64,000 bases of DNA, from assembly GCA_963693285.1 (NCBI GenBank), contig OY848919.1, forward strand, positions 11,589,461 through 11,653,460, read 5' to 3'. Under the pieces are notes generated by a model. The model ran no database searches and had not been told where the DNA came from. It saw only the letters and a list, made by a program, of their open reading frames with translations. The position numbers and the translations under genes were made by a program. Below, in pieces: positions 1 to 7,851 of the stretch. This DNA is from Xestospongia muta. Its lineage: Eukaryota; Porifera; Demospongiae; Haplosclerida; Petrosiidae. How positions within the stretch are numbered: the stretch's first letter is position 1; the number at the start of each line of letters is the position of its first letter.

Positions 1-3000
1 ATGTTCTTCTTCTTCATAATATAGCAAGGCTCTGTATTTTTGCTTGTAACATCTTAATTGAACTGGTAACATCATATGTTCCACTAGTGGAGGATTTCTT
101 TGTCTTTCCCTGTGAGTATTCTTGATTGGAGCAGTTTGCGGGAAATGTGAAGGACTTGACTGGGATTTAGTAGGAGCCAACTTTCTTTCATCCATTAACC
201 AAGCATTCCAAACTTTTTGCTCAGCATCACTATGAGCATAAGTGCACTTGGGTAAGAACTTACAAGAAGTTCCATCATAACATTTTGTGAAGAAACCTGG
301 AGGACGAAACTCTTTTGGTAGTGGTCTGATTTTCACTAAAGTACCACAATCTTCTGTTACCAATACTTTATCATGCTGACTGTGTTCCAATAATGATCTA
401 CATTGTAATTCTAATAATGAGAGATCATTTGGACTTCTTTCATAGCACCGTCGACAAATACTAGTTGTTGTGTATTTGAGTGACGATATTCCTTTCCTCT
501 GAAAACTGCTGAATGGCGCAGTCTTGACAAGTAGTGGGATGGGGTCTGGTAGGTCTTTTGATGTTATACTCTGCAGTAATAATTATGTATTATATTCATA
601 TTATACTATTATAAGCTATATAATTTCTTAAATATCTTTGTGATAATGCTATTTTTATTGGTAACAGTAAGAAATATGTACTGGCAAAATGATTGGCTGT
701 TGCCATTAGTACAAATGGATGGATGCCACTAGAGCACACTTGCAGAGCAGTAAAAAATATACTGTATTGAAAATCATAATTGTAGTCATCATCTTATGTA
801 CATCCAGAGACCATGAATTAAATTATAAAAGTGTATTTGAAGCTAACAAGTTATTCTGATGTCACTTTTGTGAAAAAAGTAGTTGTTGTCATCAATAGCC
901 TTGTATTATAACTATTACTATAAGTGGTTTAGTAAAGTACACTCTACTACTGCAGTTTTAGAATACACTTACTATATTTTCTTTTGAAGAAGGCTTGGAA
1001 GGTATATAACTTAAATTACTTCCAGGCTGTGGATCAGTAAGATACTCAGTGGACTCTTGAGGATCATCATTCTGCTTGTATTGATTCCCAGAAGTCTATT
1101 GTAATAATAAATTTAATAATCTCCAATGTACATAGTAAGGTGTAAACAATAATGTTGAATTAAAAATAAAAACTTACTTGTGGTGTTTGAGGAGGATGAG
1201 TACCTAGACAATTTACAAATGAATGGTCATGACCATGTAATATGATGAGCGTGTACCTTCCATATTTTTTGGTAGCTCATAGATCTTATCTTTCCCTTGT
1301 AGTTGACTAAATGACTTTAGTGATTCTTCCATTTCCTTTCCAGTTTTTTGTAACTTCCCTATGGATAAGGTTGAACATAATAAAAATAATCAAAGTACTA
1401 CACACAGTAATTCAGATAATATAACTTTATATTGATTTCTATACCCTAAATATGTGAATGATAATGATTGATCATATAGTAATTAGCTTGCGCTGCCATT
1501 ATACCTTCCAAAGTTTCTGTCATTTTATTGATTCTCATAAATTGCTCCTCAAGTTTTAAGTTAAACAACTCTAACAACCTCTTAGCTTCTTCTAGCTTTG
1601 CTATAAGACAAGATTACAGGATTACATCATATTCAATGTACTATTGTTATATAGTAGTCTAGTGTACTCAGACAACAAGCTATCGTTGACATAATGAAAA
1701 AGTTTTATTATCAAACAATATATATTTTCATTTTTGTATCAAAACCATTTGCAATGTTATATTTAAAGTTTAAAAAAGCCTTTTTCTATTAGAAGTATAT
1801 ATACCTTTTGAGTTCTCCTCTAGCTTGCCAATTGTCTTTTCTTTTTCTTCAAGTTGTACTTTCTGTTTTTCATCTATTATAGTGAATGTTAAAAATCTCA
1901 TTTAAAATTATGCATGCAACAATTTATTGAGTGATACCTTTTTGTTCGAGAAGAGAATTTAGTTCCTCAATTTGAAGTGTTTGAGCTTTTGTCATTTTTT
2001 TCATCATTTCAAATTGAGTTTGCAAATCCTTTTGTTCTTCCTCAGACAGTAACTTCCCTTCATCAGGTTCTAAATGAACAATAGCATTTGAATAAATCAT
2101 AAAGTTACTATTACCTTCAACATCATTTGTAGCCTCAACTGATTGAATCATTGACACCTTCACAAAGTCCTATAAACATATTATGCATACTAATTAATTT
2201 ATAAAGAGAAGCTTTACTTCAAATTTATCATAAACTGTTACATAACCAATTTTCAGTCCAACAACTTCAAACTCCTCCATCACATCCCTATTCTTATCTG
2301 CTTCAATCAGTAGTACATCCATTATGTATTGTGGAGTATAGCACATAACAGTAATAAGATCATCCTTTCTTATTCCCGCCATATAAACTCGGTTGTGCAT
2401 ATCTCCAAAAAGCTTTGATAGCAACACTTGGACATCATGCAGCTTGAATTTGTCAACCTTACACCCCAAGGTAAGCTGAACAGTCTCATTGCAGAGAAGA
2501 GGGGGCGATAATACTGATATGAAGCTTTCGTTAAAGCACATACTAAGAGTGATTTCCTTGCAAAATGTACCCACAGTTATTTTATAGGATGAAAAATAAG
2601 CTTTAGCTTCTGTAATCTCAAGATAAACAATAACAGCCTCCAAACAATCAACATTGATGATATTATATTTCTCCACAATAATAGTTATGACATCATCAGA
2701 TGATTTAGCATGTGCTAGTTGTGGTTTTAATTCTCTATAAGATTGCTGAAGGTAGGATTTGAGGTCTTTTAGTGAAGAAACATCTTTAGGCATGAGACTT
2801 CTGATAGTTTTAATAAGAATACGAAATTCTTGCCACAAGCTTTTAAAACTGTGTACTCCAGAAGGTTCTTTAATATCTGAAATTATATAATTTGTAAAAT
2901 AAATGTATTTATAACTTGTAAGTACCTTCAATACTTTTATCATTTTCTACCTGCTCAGTAGTATCTTATGATAAAATATTTGCTAATTAAATGAAATCTA

Positions 3001-5664
3001 AAAAATCATGTCATACCTGTCGACGTCATAGTGTACTGATATATTGTTGCAAATGAAGGAGTACTAATTTCATCTGCTAATAAAATGATTACTTTTCACT
3101 ACATTAACTTCAATTTCATCTTACCTCTAAATTCATGTTGAGGCAGTCGAGTGTGAGGTACACAAGTTTGTTGAGAGATTTGTACTAAACGTTTCAAAAG
3201 TCATTGCATAAAATTTGTGATGCCTTGTATATTATTACTTACGATAATCTTTAAGGATTTCATTAGCAATCAGTACTGTCTTCTTTGAATGTAGTAATAT
3301 ACTGACAAATACTCTCAACTGGCTTGGATCCTTTGACACTGTGGTATGTAGTGCTGTCAACAGATCATTGGTTAGGCAACATCCTGATTTCATAACGTTA
3401 TTATATAGCTCCTTAGATATGACTTTCTCTGTATATAAAAGCTGAATAACTTCCACAGAGAGAACAAGACCCGAGAGACATTCTGAGTATTGGTGCAGTA
3501 TTAGATTAGCAGGCTCTAATTTCTCGTCTGTAAAAGGTAATTCTATTACTCTTTGAAAACCTTCAGGCTATAAATGCAAATTAGTAGTTATATATATAAT
3601 CATGCTAACTTAAATATTTTTACCAATTTTGAAAAAATTGAAGTATCAGTCACTTTACTAGGCAATGCATAGCATGATGACTGATCTATAGAAAATGAAA
3701 ATACAACATAAGCATTATATCTAATCTAATTAATGTTTGTGCCTTATCCAACAGTTTAGCTCTTTGTCTGCATTATGTATATATTTATACATGCACTATA
3801 CTTCAAGTTACATACCAAGTGGAGAATCAGTTGATGACTGGTCTTGCTGTTCTCTGTCCATATAGGTATAAACTAAGGTTTAATTACGTGATCCTTTATA
3901 TCATGTGTATCATTGTCGTGCTCACCTTTCAGAGACTTTAGCTTTGCTATTTCATCCGATATTACCTTCTCTTCAAGAGCTTTTACCTCCTATATACAAG
4001 TATATTAACATACTTTAGTATTACTCATTTCTTACCTTTTCTCTTTTACACATATCCCATATAATATGGAAGCCCATAGTTAATTTAAGTAATCCCAGGT
4101 TTATCAATGGGTCAAGATTTTTCTCTACTTCCATTTGTAGAATATCCATTATATGTCGTGGAGCATAGCAGGTTACAATGACAGAATAGCCTTCTCTTGC
4201 TTTTGTAACTAAAACTCTCTTAGCCATATCTCCAAATGCTTTCCATAACAGATCCTGTATTTCACTGAGTGTGTGCTCATCTGTCTTCCATCCTAGGATA
4301 AACTCAATGGTCTCACATTTGAGATGAGAGGATGAGCCTATCACAAAGTTCTCATTTGAGCACAGACTGAGCTTGACTTCTTTACAGAATTTTTCAACAG
4401 CTGATTTGTAATTTGCAATATGAGCTTTGGCTTCTTCAATGTTGTAGTGATCAACAACAGCTTCCAAGCAGGCAACATTGATTATTGTACATTTTTCTTC
4501 TACTAAGTCCATAACATCATCAAATGATTCAGCTATAGATAATTGAGGTTTTAGCTCTCGAAAACAGCTTCGAAGATATTTTTTCAAATCTTTCAGTAGG
4601 AAAGAGAACTCCTGCTGTGGAAGAGGTGGTTCTGATGAAGGAGGTGAACTTATAATAGCAGATTTAATAAGAGGTGTCACACTATGAACAAGGTTTCCCA
4701 ATTTTATTCTCATTTGATCAAAATCGTATTGAAAAGTAGGCGGGAGATACAACTCTGTTACAGCACCTAATTGAAGTATATGGAATTCATTATTTAGGAG
4801 TGATGAGAAAACTAACTTTGATTACTAGAAGTTGATGTAGTGTTCAGTGGTGGAGTATCAAGAGTACTAATATCTATTGGTATGTACATAAATAATGCAT
4901 ATGACAGTAATCTAATTTGATTACAAACCTGGTTGACTTGGACATAGTGGTACTTGAGGAAAGTTTTCATCTATATACAAAATTTTAATACTATGAATCT
5001 ATAAAATATAAACAACTTACTGTACTCTTTGAGTATATCTTGTCCTATACATATTGTCTCCTCTGATTGTAACAAAACAGTAGCAAAATCTCTTAACTTG
5101 TTTGGGTTTTCAGATACAGCACTAGACAGTGCTCTCAATGGATCACCAGTTAGTAGACCTGATTTGCTCACTTCATCAAATGTCTCCTTAGAGATGACTC
5201 TCTCTTTATACAAAATATTAACTATCTTTGTAGGTAGAGTGAGTGGTGAGAGAGATTCAGAGTGTTTCTGTAATATTGAAGTAGCAACCTCTTTTTGAAC
5301 TGTTATACAAAGAAACATGAAAACATTTAACATGTTCTCTTAATCTCTGCTCACACTTACTTTCTGGTAATATCTCCTTGTATTGTTCAGCAATAGCATT
5401 GTCATTAATGCCTGGTTTCTTTAGTGTTTCTATAATCTCTCTTCTCGTGGGGTTGGGTTTACTACTCAGCCATAATTCAAACATCTTTAATGATTTGATA
5501 TCACTATCTTCATTTAGTAATTTGATATCATTTAACTTTGCGATATCTAACTTGAGAAGTACACCAAGTTTTTGCCAATTAGTACCGACTCTGACATGCT
5601 CGTATAACTCGTGTATACTCGGTTTTCCATTCAAAAACTGATCAAAATATGTGGGCACAGCCAT
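1..5664 (-). CDS. Death domain / CARD-like / coiled-coil / CCCH zinc-finger protein leading into a predicted SF1 RNA helicase (3' part off window)
   Basis: Twenty exons can be joined (high to low): 5664-5361, 5299-5021, 4970-4929, 4873-4817, 4766-4036, 3989-3926, 3872-3816, 3685-3624, 3567-3243, 3184-3125, 3073-3017, 2964-2926, 2876-2218, 2169-1938, 1873-1805, 1600-1505, 1358-1257, 1203-1178, 1095-973, 570-1. They total 3954 nt, 1318 open codons. Residues 1-101 look like a Death domain (NWQKLGVLLKLD, MFELWLSS). Residues 102-194 and ~535-640 are two related CARD-like helical domains (VISKETFDEV / VISKELYNNV). Each is followed by a ~220-residue module (~230-470 and ~692-912) sharing FRELKPQL, INVxCLEAV and a CYxPxxIMD motif. 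Residues ~950-1085 are charged coiled coil. A C-x5-C-x5-C-x3-H finger lies at ~1225-1241 (CYDGTSCKFLPKCTYAH), as in HELZ/ZC3H7 proteins. The last residues (YKQKYRALLYYEEEH) resemble the stretch preceding the helicase core of MOV10/HELZ. A nucleic-acid sensing or RNA-control role with Death-fold signalling is inferred. The ATG at 5664 is preferred over the in-frame ATG at 5709, which lies in a transposon terminus. Confidence 0.8.
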
Positions 5665-5699
5665 CGTTAGAAAGATCAATGGGTGGGACTTATAGGTCA

Positions 5700-6011
5700 C
5701 TACTGACATAGATAGTATAGACTACGTAACCGGGATTGGAAACGGATCACGTGATCCCATAGAACTGAATGAACATTCAAAAACGCACTCCGTGTCCAAA
5801 GAAATCAATTAATTTTTATTACCTGACATTGTAAACTGGACACACTCTTACCAGTATTATATTACTCTATGAAGACATTAATGTAATTTTTATTTATCAA
5901 AACATTGACTATATAATTTTCTTTATGTTCTATTATTAAAAGTAGTTAATAACACAGACATTCACTTTTAAATTACTTATTTTACGTAGTCTATACTATC
6001 TATGCTACTGA
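5700..6011. mobile_element. 298-bp MITE with 23-bp perfect terminal inverted repeats and 7-bp target duplication
   Basis: Positions 5707-5729 and 5982-6004 are exact reverse complements (23 bases, beginning catagatagtatagac). The element is bracketed by direct repeats ctactga at 5700-5706 and 6005-6011. The interior is AT-rich with no coding potential, so this is a non-autonomous DNA transposon. It lies immediately upstream of the Death-domain gene start and probably inside that gene's promoter or 5' UTR. The family cannot be assigned from 7-bp duplications alone. Confidence 0.85.
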
Positions 6012-6504
6012 GCATGCGCAATATGCTCCGCCCTAACCAATTCCTGCAATGCAATCCTCAATGGGAATGTGTGTAGCGGTATTCGAAGAGTTCAATGATC
6101 ATTTAAAAGATGCTAAGAAGTAGCCTAAATAATGAGTGAGTTTAAGTAGTGCATAATAAAGTATACTTGCTGTCAATGCATTTTTTCAATAGTATTGTGG
6201 AACATAGCATTAATTTATGGAACAATTTTAGCAGTGTATATCACAAGACTGAAGTGTTCAGCCATCAATATTGATACATGTTCCAAGTTTTTGATACTTT
6301 TATTTAAAATTTTGCCTCCATCAAGCAATGTCTGAACTCAAGACCCAATACTAAACCTTGAACCTTGAACTTTAATTTGTAACATCATCAGTAGCAGGAT
6401 AATCTAATTAAAGAATTCTATTATATTAACATCTCTATTATTATATAATATAGAATAAAGTACATAACCTTATAAAATGTTCTCTCTCTCAATTGGTTAC
6501 AGAA
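6012..6504 (+). other. Spacer upstream of KMO1, probably holding a non-coding first exon and 5' UTR intron
   Basis: No coding region is visible. A pyrimidine-rich tract ending in a splice acceptor (ttggttacag, AG at 6501-6502) lies two bases before the KMO1 ATG. The other KMO copies have the same arrangement, so a 5' UTR intron is likely. A possible donor (gtgagt) is at about 6134, but the upstream exon is not established. Confidence 0.45.
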
Positions 6505-7851
6505 ATGAGTGATATAGAGAAACCAGTTGCTGTAGTAGGAGGTGGACTAGTTGGTTGTATGCAGGCAATCTTCCTAGCTAATCGAGGATTCAAAGTGGAA
6601 CTCTATGAGTCTCGACCTGATATACGTAAATGGAATACTGGACAAGGTCGGAGTATTAACTTCACACTTTGTCATCGAGGAAGAGCAGCTCTGAGCGCCA
6701 TTGGATGTGAGGAAGAGATCATACCAATGTGTGTTCCAGTATATGGACGTATGATACACTCACTAAATGGTACAACATCTAGTCAACTCTATAGTACAAA
6801 AGGTGAGGCTCTTCTTTCAATTGATCGTCAAAAACTCAACAGATATCTCCTGGACAAAGCAGAAGCACATCAAAATATTAAAGTATATTTTCAACACAAG
6901 TTAGTATGTGTTAATCTCAAAGAACAAATTCTTACTTTGAATTATAATGGAATAGAGAAAGATGTCAGTGTGGCCTTTACTTTTGGGTGTGATGGTGCAT
7001 ATTCTACAGTAAGACGTCAATTAATGCGACATGGACGTCTAAATTACACTCAAAAATACATTGATCATGGCTACAAAGAACTTATAATGCCACCAACAAT
7101 AGAAGGCGAGTATGCAATGCCTCCTAATTATGTCCATGTTTGGCCAAAACAGGACTTCTTAATGTTAGGACTACCTAATCAAGACAAGAGCTTTACAATG
7201 ACTCTCTTTATGCCATTTGAAGGACTTGATAGTCTTAAAACAGAAAATGATGTATTAACTTTCTTTAGGACACACTTTCCAGATTCAGTTAACAAAATCG
7301 GAGCTGATCGTATAGTCAAAGACTTCTTTACAAATCCTATTGGTTCCTTAGTTTCTATTAAATGTTATCCTCACTATCTTGATTCTTACACTATTATTCT
7401 TGGAGATGCTGCTCATGCAGTTGTACCTTTTTATGGCCAAGGGTTAAATGCTGGCTTAGAAGATTGTCTTGTTTTTGATAAATGCTTGGAACAAGTAGGA
7501 AAAGATTTACACAAAGCATCTCAAGCGTATACCAAACTTCACTGGAGAAATTGTCATGCGATAGCTGATTTATCAATGCGCCATTACATGGAGTTAAGGT
7601 CACATTGTACTAGTAGAATATATATATTTAGAAAACATTTGGACAATTTTCTCCATTTTTTATTTCCTCATGCTTTCATACCATTTTATACATTGATAGC
7701 ATTTTCTCATATACCATATCATCAAGCAATAGAGAGACATCGACGACAACAAATTGTTGTAAATTGTGGATTAGTACTTGTTGTGTTAGGAGTAATCAGT
7801 ATTATTATGTGTATAATTTATATATATACAAAATGTTATGTTGTGCTATGA
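6505..7851 (+). CDS. KMO: Kynurenine 3-monooxygenase, copy 1
   Basis: Single coding exon of 448 residues from the ATG at 6505; an in-frame TTG at 6493 lies in the presumed intron. The family hydroxylates L-kynurenine to 3-hydroxykynurenine with FAD, NADPH and O2 at the mitochondrial outer membrane. Visible motifs: FAD Rossmann GGGLVG followed by ELYES, substrate-side GRMIHS and LYST, the DG motif GCDGAYSTVR, and the second FAD motif GDAAHAVVPFYGQG. A hydrophobic C-terminal anchor covers roughly the last 30 residues. The length is slightly below the vertebrate enzyme (about 480). This is the most diverged copy from KMO3-5, and it is the only one not followed by a ZDHHC copy; the NDUFA2 gene follows on the opposite strand. 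Nothing in it suggests loss of function. Confidence 0.95.
   Translation: MSDIEKPVAVVGGGLVGCMQAIFLANRGFKVELYESRPDIRKWNTGQGRSINFTLCHRGRAALSAIGCEEEIIPMCVPVYGRMIHSLNGTTSSQLYSTKGEALLSIDRQKLNRYLLDKAEAHQNIKVYFQHKLVCVNLKEQILTLNYNGIEKDVSVAFTFGCDGAYSTVRRQLMRHGRLNYTQKYIDHGYKELIMPPTIEGEYAMPPNYVHVWPKQDFLMLGLPNQDKSFTMTLFMPFEGLDSLKTENDVLTFFRTHFPDSVNKIGADRIVKDFFTNPIGSLVSIKCYPHYLDSYTIILGDAAHAVVPFYGQGLNAGLEDCLVFDKCLEQVGKDLHKASQAYTKLHWRNCHAIADLSMRHYMELRSHCTSRIYIFRKHLDNFLHFLFPHAFIPFYTLIAFSHIPYHQAIERHRRQQIVVNCGLVLVVLGVISIIMCIIYIYTKCYVVL

Follow-up and report, generated by a model that had tools for sequence, protein, structure and literature searches.

A sponge gene model joining Death, CARD-like and TRADD-N-like domains to a HELZ2-type helicase

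The 64,000-nucleotide stretch of the sponge Xestospongia muta genome analysed here (contig 3, 11589461-11653460; hereafter the window) begins inside a minus-strand gene, gene A, which at the level of sequence can encode, as one gene, everything from a Death domain through to a HELZ2-type helicase. Its domain order is Death, CARD, TRADD-N-like, CARD, TRADD-N-like, a charged coil, a zinc-finger region and one HELZ2-type helicase of superfamily 1 (SF1). The product is probably an RNA sensor or effector. The genome searched for related loci comprises 158 Mb in 28 contigs.

Gene model and domains of gene A

The splice model of gene A was drafted automatically on the left-extended contig, and then corrected by hand (one exon, one acceptor) and checked, with the count given by an earlier sequence-only reading of the window in view. 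The model has 24 exons and 1929 codons and runs on the minus strand from window position 5664 to -2043 (L001:6957). One open frame, without stop or frame break, extends through all 1929 codons; all of the introns (23/23) are GT-AG, with a median length of 53 bases and a maximum of 402 (intron 19). The window itself holds all or part of 20 of the exons, with 3957 coding bases or 1319 codons, in agreement with the 20 exons and 1318 codons previously reported. A stop or transcript end just left of position 1, which that reading had considered, is not seen at the sequence level; the stop codon lies at -2043 (L001:6957), about 2 kb left of position 1. The features of gene A, all on the minus strand, are as follows.

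1..5664, minus strand: part of gene A inside the window, exons 1-19 and most of exon 20; all introns GT-AG
5361..5664, minus strand: exon 1, with the start ATG at 5664 and the Death domain at amino acids 17-88 (Pfam PF00531)
5021..5299, minus strand: exon 2, CARD-like six-helix domain 1, amino acids 102-194 (AlphaFold fold)
4036..4766, minus strand: exon 5, a six-helix segment and a beta-alpha-beta-beta-alpha-beta domain, TRADD-N-like, amino acids 228-471 (AlphaFold2 pLDDT 75)
3873..3925, minus strand: intron 6, the junction carrying the Death-helicase link
3243..3567, minus strand: exon 9, CARD-like domain 2, amino acids 533-640 (46% identity to the exon 2 domain; this exon has no Met ahead of the domain)
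2218..2876, minus strand: exon 13, second TRADD-N-like domain, amino acids 694-913 (41% identical to the exon 5 domain)
1257..2169, minus strand: exons 14-17, highly charged coiled-coil-like linker, amino acids 914-1079 (by composition only)
1..570, ending at -19, minus strand: exon 20, zinc-finger region and YKQKYRALLYYEEEEH segment ahead of the helicase
-71..-1064, -1113..-1511, -1577..-1664 and -1712..-2043, minus strand: helicase exons, on the left-extended contig

The helicase, which the sequence-only reading could place only by inference outside the window, is present directly to its left. AAA_11 and AAA_12 score above their Pfam cut-offs, only SF1 families doing so, and the motifs are intact (Walker A GPFGSGKT, motif II DEGAQ). 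In a protein search with the helicase half, the best vertebrate HELZ2 was matched at E 3e-46, an unnamed MOV10-domain protein at 5e-26 and MOV10L1 at 3e-19; proteins under about 1061 amino acids, among them most MOV10s, fell outside the candidate set of this search. In a helicase tree of 42 rows, which has several long branches and unsure deep placings, the rows from the sponge genome group with the first helicase (hel1) of vertebrate HELZ2, apart from MOV10 and from the C-terminal helicase of HELZ2 (support 97/93). By search ranks and tree, the helicase of gene A is thus of HELZ2 type, and a MOV10 or HELZ identity is rejected on the same grounds; of the HELZ/MOV10-like helicase proposed earlier, an SF1 enzyme with a zinc finger stands and the MOV10 assignment does not. 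As the frame ends after this one helicase, without RNB domain or second helicase, gene A is a single-helicase derivative and not a full HELZ2.

Ahead of the helicase, exon 20 carries a C-x2-C pair and a C-x5-C-x5-C-x3-H pattern. A Pfam match to a CCCH finger is not significant (E 0.5), though in blastp it matches the corresponding zinc-finger stretch of a Halichondria helicase (E 7e-15) and that of a mammalian HELZ2 (E 1e-5), so that the CCCH finger noted earlier is both visible and homologous to HELZ2-like finger regions.

We found that the Death domain of gene A exceeds the PF00531 cut-off of 22.6 bits when scored on the exon frame (24.8 bits), though it falls below it in the whole-protein scan (20.2 bits). 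CARD-like domain 1 adopts a six-helix CARD fold in one AlphaFold model, nearest to the CARDs of Apaf-1 and RIG-I, while CARD-like domain 2 was assigned by sequence and not by a model of its own, through a blast match to domain 1 (46% identity). No Pfam CARD match was obtained for gene A in either exon frames or the whole protein. The presence of two CARD-like domains, as claimed from the sequence, is thus supported by a predicted fold for the first and by identity for the second. The linker of exons 14-17 appears coiled-coil-like by its composition only, K, E, R and Q making up 46% of amino acids 941-1079 as against 25% of the whole protein; the coiled coil of the earlier reading is plausible on this basis.

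That reading correctly placed a Death domain, two CARD-like domains and a finger in one frame with a helicase; it missed two further domains, in exons 5 and 13, which we infer to be TRADD-N-like. Exon 5 is predicted to form a beta-alpha-beta-beta-alpha-beta arrangement (AlphaFold2 pLDDT 75). The profiles PF13820 and PF20694 each reach 2 of 17 relatives, with best E of 0.008 and 0.096 respectively, under the cut-off, and neither matched any of eight C-type members. The unrelated FcoT profile reaches 3 of the 17 at E 0.0015, better than NCOA6_TRADD-N. A scan of the genome with TRADD-N profiles gave no match, but nor did its control; when the two TRADD-N-like types were compared as profiles, E was 0.0036 but the probability only 9%; and no TRADD structure was among the 50 listed structure matches. 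At the turn between beta2 and beta3, where TRADD-N of the NCOA6 clade carries a small residue and Ser or Cys, all eight C-type members have G[CS], the turn having been placed without a model; 12 of 17 A-type exons have G[NY]S, with one residue between, and exon 13 is without it. Proof of TRADD-N identity was therefore not reached by the profile tests. If TRADD-N-like, the two domains tie the N-terminal half of gene A to a large published sponge family.

One gene or several

Spliced models that link modules are weak evidence by themselves, as the splice method nearly always finds some path. The earlier reading named the junction 973/570, which is indeed the one on which the link between CARD and helicase rests; the Death link hinges on another, 3926/3872 (exon 6 to exon 7), which it did not name. 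It is around this second junction that several observations weigh against a single gene. The first half of gene A (window 3933-5706) is 88.8% identical to a neighbouring gene B (L001:3346-5374), which has the order Death-CARD-TRADD-N-like, a proline-rich end by eye, and is a recent copy of that half. The similarity stops where exon 6 ends, at window 3933, and no helicase exon was seen in gene B before the next gene, gene C, begins, its end having been read by eye. If intron 6 is retained, the frame of exon 6 meets a stop (IKP*) at 3875-3873, where the intron ends, and exon 7 contains an ATG at 3861 (MDREQQ...), a possible start for a separate CARD-TRADD-N-helicase gene.

Given a duplicate ending at exon 6 and an ATG at 3861, gene A may be read as two adjacent genes: a Death-CARD-TRADD-N-like gene that, like the seemingly stand-alone gene B, ends by read-through into intron 6, and a CARD-TRADD-N-like-coil-zinc finger-helicase gene starting at 3861. 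Were this so, the link of death-fold modules to the helicase would be by CARD only. Only 11 bases (3872-3862) separate the stop from the next ATG, however, too few to accommodate a 3' end and a promoter, and intron 6, at 53 bases, is of median size. The comparison with gene D, a related gene of the same cluster, also argues against the split. There, two introns of 59 and 49 bases and an intervening exon of 119 bases, which has no Met, tie the Death/TRADD-N exon tightly to the CARD exon that opens the CARD-TRADD-N-helicase half, leaving little room for a separate start. We consider the two-gene split distinctly unlikely.

Alternatively, the helicase could be encoded by a gene of its own that begins within the coil or in a first exon as yet unseen, the death-fold exons being unrelated neighbours. 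Death/TRADD-N exons are very common in this genome (579 and 298 first-look candidates for two types), and Mets are present in the coil. Furthermore there are eight ATGs in intron 19, the longest. The majority lack a donor in phase or are followed by a poor one (GTGACA, GTCTCT, GTGGCA). The three at 792, 789 and 777, however, lead in phase to GTATAT at 762, a donor similar to that of exon 15; it is thus conceivable that a separate helicase gene starts with a short first exon of this kind, and this too counts against one gene. The finger exon of gene A, on the other hand, has an acceptor and no Met ahead of the finger, and so lacks the ATG that four unfused genes on contig 9 carry in frame just ahead of theirs, in the same open frame. 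The order of gene A also recurs in gene D, with a coil seen by eye between TRADD-N and finger, although the finger exon of gene D opens with a Met and the argument there rests on the CARD junction. Separate origin of the helicase transcript is, in our view, very improbable.

A last alternative is that gene A is a recent non-functional chimera produced by segmental duplication. Its 5' half has been recently duplicated, and at C3:11565130-11566183 (L003) broken TRADD-N-like and helicase fragments lie side by side, possibly as remnants of a fused copy. Against this, 1929 codons are free of stops and frame breaks, all splice sites are GT-AG, and Walker A and motif II are intact, and we give the chimera hardly any credence.

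Facing gene A head to head, at window 6454-7851 on the plus strand, is a divergent flavin monooxygenase-like frame (by eye, kynurenine monooxygenase-like). Window 6005-6583, which covers the start region of this frame, is copied beside gene B (L001:5399-5946; 88% identical), indicating that the duplication carried the region between gene A and the monooxygenase-like gene.

Related loci in the genome

The helicase core has 22 exon matches in the genome, which we grouped into 15 loci. At ten of the 15, an exon of Death/TRADD-N-like or TRADD-N-like type lies on the same strand within 4 kb upstream. These fused loci comprise a cluster of genes A, C and D, a recent duplicate pair E and F, a cluster of four on contig 13, and C3b, near C3:12.34 Mb. 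By chance, about 0.017 same-strand exons would be expected within 6 kb upstream of each locus if the first-look counts were spread evenly; as Death/TRADD-N exons are clustered, the true chance is above this figure. Because the loci also duplicate, the ten fused loci amount to about four independent places, which lessens the support that recurrence lends to the fusion. The contig 13 loci C13_1 to C13_4 match over the TRADD-N part only, and C13_3 over its last third only; a Death match adjoins C13_1. At the remaining five loci (four on contig 9, one on contig 13) no front exon was found up to 10 kb upstream, using our own queries only.

Exons of the kind found in front of these helicases are abundant. 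There are at least 150 Death/TRADD-N-like exons of the window type in the genome (579 first-look candidates), and another type of exon, also made up of Death and TRADD-N-like parts, gave 108 matches (298 first-look candidates). Death exons genome-wide numbered 1488 as first-look candidates; 150 were scored, and all 150 were over the cut-off.

Among the fused genes, gene C has on one strand its front exon, then a first helicase, a second helicase (hel2), a HELZ2-type OB fold and an RNB domain. Genes E and F have the front exon, both helicases and the segment before RNB, where the examined stretch ends. One model frame of gene E spans 2128 codons, from a Death domain (E 3e-7) through both helicases into the OB segment before RNB. 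Between the duplicates E and F, the linking exons differ by four synonymous and nine non-synonymous codon changes, which are too few to judge by and give no sign of purifying selection.

In the helicase tree, the fused genes A, C, D, E and F form one clade with three unfused genes from contig 9 (100/98), and the contig 13 genes form another with C3b (100/99). This mixing of fused and unfused genes indicates that the fusion either arose more than once or was lost. The relative near C3:12.34 Mb (C3:12343383-12344405, L027/L041) has motif II as DKAAQ, not DExxQ, and is possibly an inactive helicase.

Proposed function and comparison with known systems

RIG-I and MDA5 are built around the coupling of an RNA helicase with death-fold signalling. 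With moderate confidence, we read gene A as one Death-CARD-TRADD-N-like-HELZ2 gene whose product acts in the cytoplasm as a sensor of RNA, or as an effector that targets it, and is coupled to signalling. It would work in the fashion of a RIG-I-like receptor (RLR), on an SF1 HELZ2 helicase: zinc finger and helicase would engage foreign or aberrant RNA and spend ATP, and RNA-dependent clustering would gather the Death, CARD and coil segments, which could then nucleate an assembly that draws in Death and CARD partners, with cell death or an immune response as the outcome. The sister gene C, with its second helicase and RNB exonuclease, could both destroy RNA and signal. This reading agrees with what passages of PMC9839780 describe for human HELZ2, a helicase/exonuclease stimulated by interferon and capable of lowering LINE-1 RNA.

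The product might instead be an RNA-silencing or anti-retrotransposon effector, its Death, CARD and TRADD-N-like parts serving as scaffold or for localisation and sending neither a death nor an immune signal. Human HELZ2 acts on LINE-1 RNA and no longer inhibits retrotransposition once its Walker A motif is mutated; in purified form it uses its RNB domain to degrade RNA in the 3' to 5' direction, as the same passages of PMC9839780 describe. TRADD-N in TRADD is an interaction module (parts of PMC8195603). However, Death and CARD folds typically signal by homotypic contacts, as stated in a portion of PMC8998645, and the wider sponge family described in sections of PMC8195603 carries caspases, kinases and other signalling domains. 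A purely silencing role seems to us fairly unlikely.

Tentatively, and with more doubt than conviction, we also raise a broader proposal, in which sponges would have evolved a second class of RNA receptor independent of RIG-I: members with one helicase would only signal, members with RNB (C and probably E and F) would combine detection, degradation and signalling in one chain, and the front modules would have been exchanged by exon shuffling. If the coupling is real, the same design would have been reached with another superfamily of helicase, in a genome where RIG-I C-terminal domains occur too, which would suggest that it is easy to evolve, and HELZ2, termed poorly characterized in a passage of PMC9839780, gains a direct evolutionary link to cell-death signalling. 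Since fused and unfused HELZ2-like genes share one genome, the comparison between them is testable.

Among proteins of other species, the helicase half of gene A is 30-49% identical to HELZ2-like proteins of other sponges (P0002, P0003, P0005, P0006, P0007, P0009): 47-49% for three from Amphimedon queenslandica, 34% for a fourth, 36% for Halichondria panicea and 30% for Dysidea avara. These proteins gave no match to the Death, CARD and TRADD-N queries from gene A at E 0.01. The protein search returned 14 matches in all, none of which has a listed Pfam Death domain or matches the N-terminal queries, and none of which is at least 85% identical to any of the compared loci; further searches, with 7731 and 6553 candidates, gave none at E 0.001 or better. 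That no fused homologue from another species was obtained counts against our reading of gene A, within the reach of these searches, which took in only proteins that share exact words and are of similar length. Titles and abstracts surfaced from openly licensed PMC papers likewise held no Death/CARD-HELZ2 protein.

Three of the matched proteins have C-termini of their own. In P0007 (H. panicea) a protein kinase domain (PF00069, E 4e-49) forms the C-terminus of a HELZ2-like helicase. The C-termini of two other HELZ2-like helicases, P0006 (A. queenslandica) and P0010 (metagenome), resemble ZU5 and a CARD-like bundle by eye; ZU5 in P0006 is sub-threshold (17.8 bits against a cut-off of 21), and P0010 has no ZU5 or CARD match, so these are at most a possible second, independent death-fold fusion. 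In D. avara, two HELZ2 genes are reported to show reduced expression on contact with symbiont microbes (part of PMC11229196).

Among the published systems closest to gene A is an Amphimedon family with N-terminal Death-like domains and TRADD-N (NCOA6 clade, RRM-like), present in hundreds of copies with a variable C-terminus that may be ankyrin, SH3-LRR, kinase, MATH, SH2, PDZ, caspase, PNPase or HD (sections of PMC8195603). Gene A shares the order Death then TRADD-N, on the assumption that its own domains are TRADD-N. The same sections describe cnidarian and brachiopod proteins in which TRADD-N is joined to Mov10, DDX60 or RLR-like helicases. As in gene A, with its TRADD-N-like domains, a TRADD-N module is there combined with an RNA helicase, which in the case of Mov10 is likewise of SF1; these fusions differ in having TRADD-N of the DEDD2 clade, in belonging to other phyla, and in using Mov10 rather than HELZ2. 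As such TRADD-N-helicase fusions and the Amphimedon Death-like/TRADD-N units are on record there, the suggestion that gene A is an undescribed combination was too strong as a general claim. The main text of PMC8195603 does not use the words HELZ, RNB, UPF1 or ZNFX1, so that, the TRADD-N/helicase fusion being known, gene A appears as a new variant, a HELZ2 version not named in that text.

RLRs resemble gene A in placing death-fold modules ahead of an RNA helicase, RIG-I having two CARDs where gene A has two CARD-like domains, and Death-type RLRs exist in Amphimedon (part of PMC8998645). They differ in having a helicase of superfamily 2 (SF2), whereas gene A has SF1 only (AAA_11/AAA_12), and the CARDs of RIG-I are in tandem, whereas those of gene A are parted by a TRADD-N-like domain. 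A scan of gene A for the C-terminal RD of RIG-I (PF11648) gave no match at E up to 1; elsewhere in the genome, on contig 3 at 11371526-11379989, about 0.2 Mb from gene A, this model has three matches. Gene A as a true RLR is thus rejected by its lack of an SF2 helicase and of a C-terminal RD, and the RIG-I-like architecture proposed by the sequence-only reading survives as an analogy.

With vertebrate HELZ2, gene A shares the zinc-finger region and the first helicase; it stops after that one helicase and adds death-fold and TRADD-N-like modules in front. In human HELZ2 the two helicases flank RNB, as described in a passage of PMC9839780, whereas in the sponge genes both helicases precede it.

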